Source of the DNA: Halobacterium wangiae
Lineage (GTDB): Archaea; Halobacteriota; Halobacteria; Halobacteriales; Halobacteriaceae
Assembly: GCF_021249345.1 (NCBI RefSeq)
Contig: NZ_CP089588.1
Span: forward strand, 434,001 to 498,000
DNA length: 64,000 nt
Direction: 5' to 3'
Shown here: positions 52,338 to 54,880 of the stretch, piece after piece
Numbering within the stretch: the first letter of the stretch is position 1
Layout of the letters: every line of letters begins with the position of its first letter
Made by a program: the position numbers and the translations under genes
The notes under the pieces: generated by a model
The model's input: only the letters and a program-made list of their open reading frames with translations
Database searches by the model: none
Told to the model about the DNA's origin: nothing

Positions 52338-52495
52338 CGCCCGGAGGTTGCTCGTGCGTCGGCAAAAACCTCCCTGTCGAGGGTGAAATCCGTTCACAAT
52401 GCCCTCGTCGGGGGGTAGAGCACCTCCGAAGTTGATTTCGGCGTTTGATTCGGGAATTTTACGGATATTTTCTATCTGTTATCTTCAAATAGATT

Positions 52496-52505
52496 CAATA
52501 TATTG
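52496..52505 (+). promoter_or_regulatory. TATA box (CAATATATTG) of the twin-peptide genes in an AT-rich island
   Basis: The palindromic CAATATATTG is centred 27.5 nt upstream of the first peptide ATG (52528), giving a leaderless mRNA. It lies at the end of a strikingly AT-rich stretch (about 52430-52505) that contrasts with the G+C-rich surroundings. Confidence 0.65.
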
Positions 52506-52527
52506 ACCGGTCTCTATCCAGTTGACG

Positions 52528-52662
52528 ATGTCAGACAGCAAGCTCACGCAGTTCCTGACCGACAACCCGCGAATGATCGGCGTCCTGTTCAGCCTCATGG
52601 TCTTCCTCTCGACCACCGGCGCTGCCGCCGCGAGCAACACCTCCTCCATCTCGGGGCCGTAA
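52528..52662 (+). CDS. 44-aa membrane/secreted peptide, copy A
   Basis: ATG at 52528, TAA at 52660-52662. The peptide has a polar, Lys/Arg-containing N-terminus (MSDSKLTQFLTDNPR), a hydrophobic span at residues 16-36 with small residues at its end (STTGAAAAS), and a short tail NTSSISGP containing an N-glycosylation sequon (Asn37-Thr-Ser). It could be a single-pass membrane peptide or an exported one. The protein sequence is identical to copy B, which starts two bases after this stop. From memory it resembles tiny haloarchaeal proteins filed as DUF7503; no function known. It is convergent with the CHAT protein. Confidence 0.82.
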   Translation: MSDSKLTQFLTDNPRMIGVLFSLMVFLSTTGAAAASNTSSISGP

Positions 52663-52664
52663 CG

Positions 52665-52799
52665 ATGTCGGACAGCAAGCTCACGCAGTTCCTGACCGAC
52701 AACCCGCGGATGATCGGCGTCCTGTTCAGCCTCATGGTCTTCCTCTCGACCACGGGCGCCGCAGCTGCCAGCAACACCTCGTCGATCTCCGGTCCTTAG
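52665..52799 (+). CDS. 44-aa membrane/secreted peptide, copy B
   Basis: ATG at 52665, TAG at 52797-52799. The product is identical to copy A at all 44 residues, while the DNA differs at 12 sense positions, all synonymous, plus the stop codon. Ten of the 12 changes fall in the last 16 codons. Both copies are preceded by ACG and start ATGTC. The stop overlaps the TAA of the convergent CHAT gene. Identity of protein despite DNA divergence shows selection on the peptide sequence. Confidence 0.82.
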   Translation: MSDSKLTQFLTDNPRMIGVLFSLMVFLSTTGAAAASNTSSISGP

Positions 52800-54880
52800 T
52801 TCAGCTCGTTCTCCAGTAGTTCGTCGCTCCAGACCAGTTCGTCGTCGAGGAGCACCGGCACGACGCCGCGGTTGAAGAACTCGCGTAGCTCCGCCGCCGA
52901 GACCTCGAACGTGTCGATGTGCCCGGAGTTCAGGTAGCGTAGCGTGTTCTCCTGGACGTTCGGCGTCAACAACGACCCGATAGAGGTCCGCGACGTCGGG
53001 TAGCCGTGGATGGTGAGTTCGTAGCCATCCGACAACGTCTCTAGCTCCGTCGATACCGGCGTCCCGGTCGTGTGCTGGACCAGCTGTAGGGTCCCGTCAC
53101 CGATGGTGATGTACTGGTTCCCGAACAGCGTGACGTTCCTGGCCACCGACAGCCCCGCCTGGAGCGTGAACCCGTTGTTCAGCAGGCGGGCGAGCGCGCG
53201 ACCGATCCTGACCGCGGGGTCGTTGCTGATGTTCGTCAGCGTGACGATGCCGCCGAAACTCCCCCGGTCGACGAGCGCCTTCCCCTGTTCGTAGGAGCGG
53301 CAGGCGTTCAGGAGGAACGCGTCGACGTTGACCTCCGTCAGTGTGTGGGCGTCCAGCAGGCCGTCACTGCACTGGAACCCGCCGTCGTCGACGTGCCCGA
53401 TGTAGTGGAGGAAGTCCGCGTCCGCCCGCAGCAGTTCGGCGAGTTCGGCCTTCGAGAGCTCGTAGTGGACGGCGATCTCGAACTCGAAGAGGTCCCGCGC
53501 CCCGTAGAACTGCTCGACGATGTCCTCCTCGCTCATCTCGGAGTCGTTGCAGACGATCTCGATGCTGATCGACTCCCTGTCGCGTTCCGGCCGCTCGAGC
53601 CGGCGGCGGTACGAGGGCGTGGTCGTCTTGCTCGCACCGAGCGGGTAGCCGTCGGCGATCCAGGCGTGTTCGATGGCGGTCGTTTCCGTCGGCTTCACGA
53701 TACCGGAGTCGTCGGTGACCGCACCCGACTGGCTCCTGACGTTCGCGTCCTTCGCCCGGTAGAACGACGTCAGTTCCTCGGGCTCCGAGCGAACGGTGGG
53801 GTCCGGTCCCGTCTCGGGGATCCGTATCTCCGCGAGGTCGTTCGTGACGAACGGGATCGACTCGACGTTCGCGGGGTCGGGAGCCATGTCCGCCGTCAGC
53901 TTCCACCGCGGGCGGTACGGTTCCGTTACCTCGTAGGGCACCTCGAGGTACGCCCGGAGCTGTTCGGCGAGGGAGGCCTCGTACAGTTCGGCGAGGTCGA
54001 ACGGGAGGTCGTCCTCGACTTCGTTCCGCTCGTGGAGGTCGACCGGGTAGAACCCCTCGGTCCGGGTCACACAGTCGAGGAAGAAGACGTGCTTGAGCAG
54101 CGTGTTCACCTCCGACTCGAAGCCACGTTCCGTGTCGAGGTCGTAGCGCCACCCGTCGACCACGAGCGTCCGCGTCTCCCCCGGGACGATCTCGGCGCCG
54201 AGGTAGTACGCCAGCGAACTCACCACGTAGAGGTCCGCGTAGTCGCGCGGAATCTCGATGGTCACGTCGGTGTCGGGTGCGACGAGGGCGTCCGGGGCGT
54301 CGAAGCCGTCGCCCCGCTCGACGAGCGGCGGGTGCCCCCGAAGCGTCGGGAACGACCGCTCGCAGGACGTCGTCTTCAGCGCCGACCCGCTCAGGGAGAT
54401 GGCGCGCATCGCGTCCTCGACGCTGTCGCCGACGGTGATGGTGCCTGCTGGCGACTCGTGGAGGGAGCGAACGCCGACCGCGAGTGGCGTCACTTCGCCG
54501 AACTCCACGTGTGTCGAGTTCTCCAGGCGCCGGATCGTCACGCTGGACTCGACGACAACCTGGAGTTTCATCGGGCCGACGTCGAAGTTGAGCGAGTACC
54601 AGTCCAAGGGGTACTCGGCTCGTTGCTGGTTCGCGGACTCCCCGATGAGGGTCCCGTCGGCCGACCGGAGGATGACGTCCACGAGTCGCGGGATCTCGAG
54701 CGTGCCCGTCGTTACGCTGACCGCCTCGTCGGCCGGGAAGACGAACCGGTCGGTGTCCACCGGCGTCGGGTCGACGACGTGGTCCGTGTACAGTTCGAAC
54801 TGCGCGTTCTCGATGGGGTCGAGGATGTGGAGGCCGGGCGGCGTCTCCAGGGTCGTGAACTCCGGTCTCACGCCGACCAC
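52796..54880 (-). CDS. Haloarchaeal CHAT-domain (caspase-like) protein
   Basis: 694 residues from GTG at 54880; GTG at 54871 is an alternative that overlaps the TGA of an upstream 88-codon frame (GTGA). The N-terminal 450 residues are a mostly beta, then alpha/beta, region with no named domain (PEFTTLETPPGLHILDPIEN, ISLSGSALKTTSCERSFPTL, VFFLDCVTRTEGFYPVDLHE). The C-terminal CHAT peptidase domain carries the catalytic pair: His496 in ADFLHYIGHVDDGG and Cys527 in VDAFLLNACRSYEQG, followed by GSFGGIVTLTNISNDPAVRIGR shortened strands. The dyad is intact, so proteolytic activity is plausible. No signal peptide: cytosolic. It converges on the twin-peptide genes. Confidence 0.85.
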   Translation of the reverse strand: MVGVRPEFTTLETPPGLHILDPIENAQFELYTDHVVDPTPVDTDRFVFPADEAVSVTTGTLEIPRLVDVILRSADGTLIGESANQQRAEYPLDWYSLNFDVGPMKLQVVVESSVTIRRLENSTHVEFGEVTPLAVGVRSLHESPAGTITVGDSVEDAMRAISLSGSALKTTSCERSFPTLRGHPPLVERGDGFDAPDALVAPDTDVTIEIPRDYADLYVVSSLAYYLGAEIVPGETRTLVVDGWRYDLDTERGFESEVNTLLKHVFFLDCVTRTEGFYPVDLHERNEVEDDLPFDLAELYEASLAEQLRAYLEVPYEVTEPYRPRWKLTADMAPDPANVESIPFVTNDLAEIRIPETGPDPTVRSEPEELTSFYRAKDANVRSQSGAVTDDSGIVKPTETTAIEHAWIADGYPLGASKTTTPSYRRRLERPERDRESISIEIVCNDSEMSEEDIVEQFYGARDLFEFEIAVHYELSKAELAELLRADADFLHYIGHVDDGGFQCSDGLLDAHTLTEVNVDAFLLNACRSYEQGKALVDRGSFGGIVTLTNISNDPAVRIGRALARLLNNGFTLQAGLSVARNVTLFGNQYITIGDGTLQLVQHTTGTPVSTELETLSDGYELTIHGYPTSRTSIGSLLTPNVQENTLRYLNSGHIDTFEVSAAELREFFNRGVVPVLLDDELVWSDELLENELN

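Follow-up and report, generated by a model that had tools for sequence, protein, structure and literature searches.

The CHAT/separase peptidases of clan CD (PF12770) share a predicted caspase fold and a His/Cys dyad with the haloarchaeal protein described here. Unlike them, the haloarchaeal CHAT protein is too diverged for the Pfam model, and its partner is a 44-aa peptide. Bacterial gasdermin operons place a caspase-like protease beside a membrane-associated protein, and the same neighbourhood was observed in the haloarchaeal pair. However, the haloarchaeal peptide is much smaller than a gasdermin fold requires, and the two genes are convergent and form no operon. In the Phr-Rap/RRNPP pairs, a precursor of 40–50 aa with a signal-like segment and a short C-terminal peptide is encoded beside the gene of a cytosolic protein. 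Judged by sequence pattern only, the haloarchaeal peptide resembles such a short precursor, with a signal-like segment and a C-terminal tail, whereas its partner is a predicted protease without a TPR receptor.

In type III-E Craspase, the TPR-CHAT protease Csx29 is encoded beside a dedicated partner protein, Csx30 (PMC10028731), as the haloarchaeal CHAT protein is encoded beside its peptide. Compared with the TPR N-terminus of Craspase, the N-terminus of the haloarchaeal CHAT model is β-rich, and no CRISPR/Cas genes were seen among the conserved clusters of neighbouring genes in 120 haloarchaeal loci. By analogy, the haloarchaeal pair may work like the protease–partner module Csx29–Csx30 (PMC10028731); as a whole, it could be assigned to none of the systems in this comparison.

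The peptide and protease genes of the window

The window is the whole stretch of 64,000 nucleotides of Halobacterium wangiae DNA that was analysed. The features of the pair, by position in the window, are as follows.

52430–52527, + strand: AT-rich stretch preceding the gene of copy 1, probable core promoter
52528–52662, + strand: DUF7503 micropeptide copy 1, 44 aa (Pfam match, ORF translation, model)
52665–52799, + strand: DUF7503 micropeptide copy 2, protein identical to copy 1; abuts the CHAT gene
52791–52796, + strand: codons ggt cct for Gly43-Pro44 at the C-terminus of copy 2; this end is near-invariant in the family
52796–52799, no strand assigned: 4-bp overlap of the convergent genes at their stop codons
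52796–54880, − strand: predicted clan CD (CHAT-like) cysteine peptidase, 694 aa, cytosolic by sequence
53300–53302, − strand: putative catalytic Cys527 codon (LNAC.SY), invariant in 141/141 GP-paired and 73/73 aligned homologues
53393–53395, − strand: putative catalytic His496 codon (HY[IV]GH), invariant in the same 141/141 and 73/73 homologues

The flanks were ordinary: the pair lies between a birA-type biotin ligase gene and a biotin carboxylase gene. Both 44-aa ORFs translated to MSDSKLTQFLTDNPRMIGVLFSLMVFLSTTGAAAASNTSSISGP. The two copies differed at 13 of 135 bases, comprising 12 silent codon changes and TAA/TAG, with no amino-acid change. As none of the 13 differences changes the protein, the tandem ORFs are genuinely coding, maintained by selection on the protein, and not a product of chance; the two tandem genes for one 44-residue peptide, as described in the sequence-only reading, were thereby confirmed. 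Copy 1 consists of an N-terminal segment, a hydrophobic helix, an AAA motif, and the 9-residue tail SNTSSISGP. The predicted structure showed a helix at residues 14–38; the partner was also scored in prediction as two short helices, which is not a gasdermin fold. A comparable AT-rich block was observed about 25–95 bp upstream of the peptide gene throughout the class. Tandem duplication of the peptide gene was found in one of 166 loci, that of the window, so the twin is not a conserved feature, and what is conserved is a single peptide facing CHAT. The twin copy is peculiar to the window strain.

The peptide matched Pfam family DUF7503 (PF24335) with an E value of 6e-19 and 67.7 bits against a curated cut-off of 27, and is a member. 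The system had been proposed as undescribed. For the pairing this stands, as no description of it was found; the peptide itself already forms a Pfam family, to which Pfam assigns no function. New here are the findings that DUF7503 is linked to CHAT and that it ends in GP. In the open-access subset of the literature, no paper named DUF7503, and none treated the CHAT domain together with haloarchaea or with H. volcanii.

The AlphaFold2 model of the CHAT protein (pLDDT 85.9, pTM 0.87) had a β-rich N-terminal region, a low-confidence stretch at residues 358–390, and a caspase-fold C-terminal part. Foldseek matched the model to separase, gingipain RgpB, SAVED-CHAT, and Craspase with a probability of ~1.0; for the first three, E was ~1e-6. 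Whole-chain TM-scores against these matches were low (~0.2–0.3), because the alignment covers only part of the CHAT chain. The dyad of the window protein lies in the motifs HYIGH and LNACRSY. Modelling thus predicts a protease fold of clan CD, and in the aligned homologues noted above the His/Cys dyad does not vary. The convergent 694-residue protein, its intact His496/Cys527 pair, and its CHAT assignment had all been read from the letters, and each proved right, the last by predicted fold; no export signal was evident, again as claimed.

Sequence families were less informative. The window CHAT protein matched no Pfam family, PF12770 included, and PF12770 gave a weak match in 8 of 26 CHAT relatives (best E 3.7e-4). 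No family was matched by the N-terminal 430 residues, and no TPR domain was found by Pfam, the N-terminus of the model being mainly β strands. A PDB sequence search with the CHAT profile returned no match, and the NCBIfam search gave nothing useful. The closest homologues of the window protein were in Halobacterium.

Pairing of peptide and protease across Halobacteria

CHAT proteins were found in 271 of 292 Halobacteria genomes (93%) and DUF7503 in 250. None of the 21 CHAT-less genomes carried DUF7503 (Fisher p ~1e-20, kinship between genomes ignored). For this co-occurrence, the DUF7503 and CHAT tables were compared by hand. Among the matches listed, 66 CHAT matches could be linked with a DUF7503 entry, every pair being convergent. 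Unmatched entries were sampled by fetching loci and were not scored as absences. An adjoining, convergent CHAT gene was observed at 30/30 best DUF7503 loci, at 19/19 further loci, and at 29/29 copies from eight multi-copy genomes. As one place belongs to two sets, the distinct loci inspected amount to 77, each with a convergent CHAT neighbour (77/77). Independent occurrence of peptide and CHAT gene in most genomes, which had been named as a test of the proposal, was thus not observed. The DUF7503 peptide is very probably a dedicated partner of the CHAT protease. No third gene was universal beside the pair in 120 loci, i.e., no conserved genomic island was detected.

Stop-to-stop distances in the class were most commonly −3 and +1. 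In most loci the two genes meet or overlap at their stop codons, which would suit an explanation without physical partnership, in which peptide and CHAT are tied by transcript overlap only (antisense control at the 3′ ends). However, gaps of up to 127 bp occur and are tolerated, the overlap involves at most the last few bases in most loci, and the protein keeps its GP end while silent changes accumulate freely in the codons. It would be a great surprise if this explanation were correct.

Partners were surveyed for 166 distinct CHAT genes of near-full length, a set ordered mainly by similarity of the CHAT sequence. A small ORF ending exactly in Gly-Pro (GP) was faced by 141 of them, and the next-commonest ending under the same rule accounted for 9/166. 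Of the rest, 4 faced a DUF7503-like peptide without GP and 21 were orphans. All 141 CHATs with a GP peptide kept the dyad, so routine loss of the His/Cys pair in the family, the other test that had been set, was not seen. Among the orphans, each dyad residue was kept in 19/21 in the alignment. The orphans were scattered in a quick tree with many weak forks and long branches, as apparent losses or deep branches.

The C-terminal Gly-Pro tail and its possible role

Of 108 GP tails, 72 had exactly 9 residues and 104 had 8–10. In alignment A3 (29 sequences, all GP peptides), the only invariant positions were M1, P14, G43, and P44. The GP codons showed silent changes only (pS 0.48–0.67, pN 0), and the tail middle was relaxed (pN/pS 0.36–0.91). 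GP as a by-product of the stop-codon overlap was ruled out, since GP is kept where the gap is tens of bases. A minority form has a tail of about 6 residues with a variable last residue; the twelve non-GP tails collected were TID (4), TIR (2), GIR, TIG, AVF, TTY, GTW, and TVT. They were commoner in the eight multi-copy genomes (5/26 readable peptides).

Distant CHATs faced dissimilar peptides that likewise ended in GP; such cases are few, and single ones such as L112 may be chance GP ORFs. The peptides of L117/L118 (29–34 aa) lacked the hydrophobic segment and ended in GP, and in L256/L261 GP was followed by three residues (SNP, TNP). In a Haloplanus group (L043, L048, L052, L053, L056, L057, L148, L181), the hydrophobic segment was replaced by tandem repeats, e.g. 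TADGNGGGISGP, with the pattern [YFM][TN]ADGNGGGISGP and units ending in ISGP. Each 9-mer was preceded by [TN]AD and followed by [YFMS][TN]AD, and the copies ranged from 2 (L148) to ~14 (L053). The Haloplanus genome G289 carried an ordinary DUF7503 peptide with an N-terminus similar to that of the repeat peptides; the repeat form is therefore probably derived. As the GP tail is kept while the helix is lost or dissimilar, the tail end and not the membrane helix is the element common to distant pairs.

The explanation we favour, with a probability of about 0.45, is a dedicated protease–micropeptide module in which the tail is a ligand setting CHAT activity. The invariant residues lie at the extreme C-terminus without P′ residues, which would favour a ligand or regulator over an ordinary substrate. 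The free C-terminus of the tail would act as a product-like ligand that docks in the CHAT protein, probably inside the catalytic cleft or adjoining it. Once docked, the tail would set protease activity, while the helix would hold the ligand at the membrane. Failed insertion, membrane damage, or peptide loss would then alter protease activity and lead to housekeeping or stress proteolysis. Our first guess for the effect of the peptide is inhibition, as by securin.

Among the CHAT positions differing between GP and non-GP partners were I494, G501, and A526, which adjoin the dyad, and T179/L180, which lie in a conserved loop. In this comparison of 141 columns, with kinship ignored, co-variation of dyad-side and T179/L180 positions with the partner's tail type is weak and no more than suggestive. 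Several findings speak against the ligand view. By the positive-inside rule, R15 immediately ahead of the helix would place the tail of an inserted peptide outside the cell, whereas CHAT is cytosolic by sequence. Most Haloplanus GP copies are internal and those of L256/L261 are not terminal, so the free GP carboxylate is missing in some cases if the precursor stays uncut. Finally, orphan CHATs exist (21/166), most of them with an intact dyad.

The peptide had first been proposed as substrate or effector of CHAT. The dedicated pairing underlying both proposals was supported by the present analysis. In the substrate version, a trigger would lead CHAT to cut the peptide, which would thereby be destroyed or yield a fragment. 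Genes for CHAT proteases can lie next to that of the substrate, as in Csx29–Csx30 (PMC10028731), and the Haloplanus arrays resemble a multi-unit precursor that needs cutting. The usual form, however, has its invariant residues last in the protein with nothing on the prime side, and beyond Met1 the invariants of A3 are Pro14, Gly43, and Pro44, with no other fixed cleavage residue visible. We regard cleavage of the peptide as possible, though doubtful.

As a membrane effector in a cell-death module, the peptide would be a toxic pore former under CHAT control. It is small and hydrophobic with a modelled helix, and bacterial gasdermins are activated by clan CD proteases. Against this, some lineages lose the hydrophobic segment yet keep the GP tail, which weakens a membrane-active effector as a general principle. 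The pair is near-universal in the class, unlike patchy defence systems. Neither peptide nor CHAT protein matched the PADLOC models of anti-phage defence, and an IMG/VR scan with the CHAT alignment gave 95 pattern matches and no relative. Immunity or cell death, which the sequence-only reading had raised without direct evidence, is unsupported on these grounds, and a pore former appears quite improbable.

The tail may instead be an exported signal, following the Phr-Rap logic of Bacillus: the helix would be a cleavable signal peptide, and the GP 9-mer would be secreted, re-imported, and read by CHAT. The peptide has an n-region with R/K, a hydrophobic core, an [AV]xA site, and a tail of fixed length with a variable middle. 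The C-terminal Pro would shield the 9-mer from carboxypeptidases. In ~45/120 loci, CHAT is preceded by a DUF7504 gene, which in some cases also encodes a HalOD1 output domain. However, no diversifying selection on the tail was found (pN/pS < 1), the helix is better conserved than signal peptides usually are, a signal segment is lacking in the Haloplanus peptides, and the CHAT model shows no TPR receptor domain. We consider export and re-import rather unlikely.

Caspase-like activity, paralogues, and neighbouring genes

A dominant caspase-like activity has been described in Haloferax volcanii, in work that did not identify the protein responsible (PMC3615174). Of 114 archaeal genomes surveyed in 2012, only 5 had caspase homologues (PMC3501461). 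The CHAT family is easy to miss because most members fail the Pfam CHAT model. Haloferax species carry the peptide–CHAT pair, and DUF7503 was found in H. volcanii, our control genome; its CHAT gene is inferred from the other Haloferax species. The CHAT family is a candidate source of the unexplained haloarchaeal caspase-like activity. As Haloferax is genetically tractable, this orphan-activity question is addressable by knock-out. A caspase-fold family with an intact dyad is present in 93% of the Halobacteria genomes searched, with a named tiny partner, and the peptide–protease pair has an unusually clear sequence signature in its C-terminal GP. If true, the ligand reading would be a new regulatory principle. 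In its fullest form, the free C-terminus of a membrane-tethered micropeptide would control a caspase-fold protease as a built-in product-like ligand, GP or, in sub-lineages, TID/TIR/AVF being matched to the own CHAT, Haloplanus having tandem ligand arrays, and the protease being the source of the haloarchaeal caspase-like activity. We hold this combined proposal tentatively, and it may well fail in one part or another.

DUF7504 was beside CHAT in 52/120 loci, in ~45 of them upstream on the same strand and in several more on the other side (L061–L100, L130–L209), with a HalOD1 domain in some cases. The window genome has 10 DUF7504 copies, none seen beside the window pair. CHAT relatives outside Halobacteria, in four genomes of one family of the same phylum (L243–L246; G345, G336, G327, G318), had no convincing GP peptide. 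In Haladaptatus and relatives (L152, L171, L062), CHAT genes occurred without the peptide, in tandem in L152 and L171, and the gene next to CHAT in L062 resembles folP; the absence of the peptide is a probable secondary loss. CHAT matches were fragmented across frames in G047 (L115, L124) and G071 (L114, L126), both without DUF7503; peptide and protease seem to have decayed together there.

Two genomes (G123 and G173) had 12–13 CHAT matches each (L108, L113, L121, L122, L128, L129, L254–L261), and several of these CHATs had their own divergent small convergent ORF ending in GP or GPxxP. A second Halobacterium CHAT paralogue (L253, G000:C1:1082000-1092000; L247, L248) had no GP peptide and was convergent, with overlapping stops, with a TRAM-domain protein ending in FWGN. 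Three CHATs of this TRAM-facing type stood in tandem in G022.
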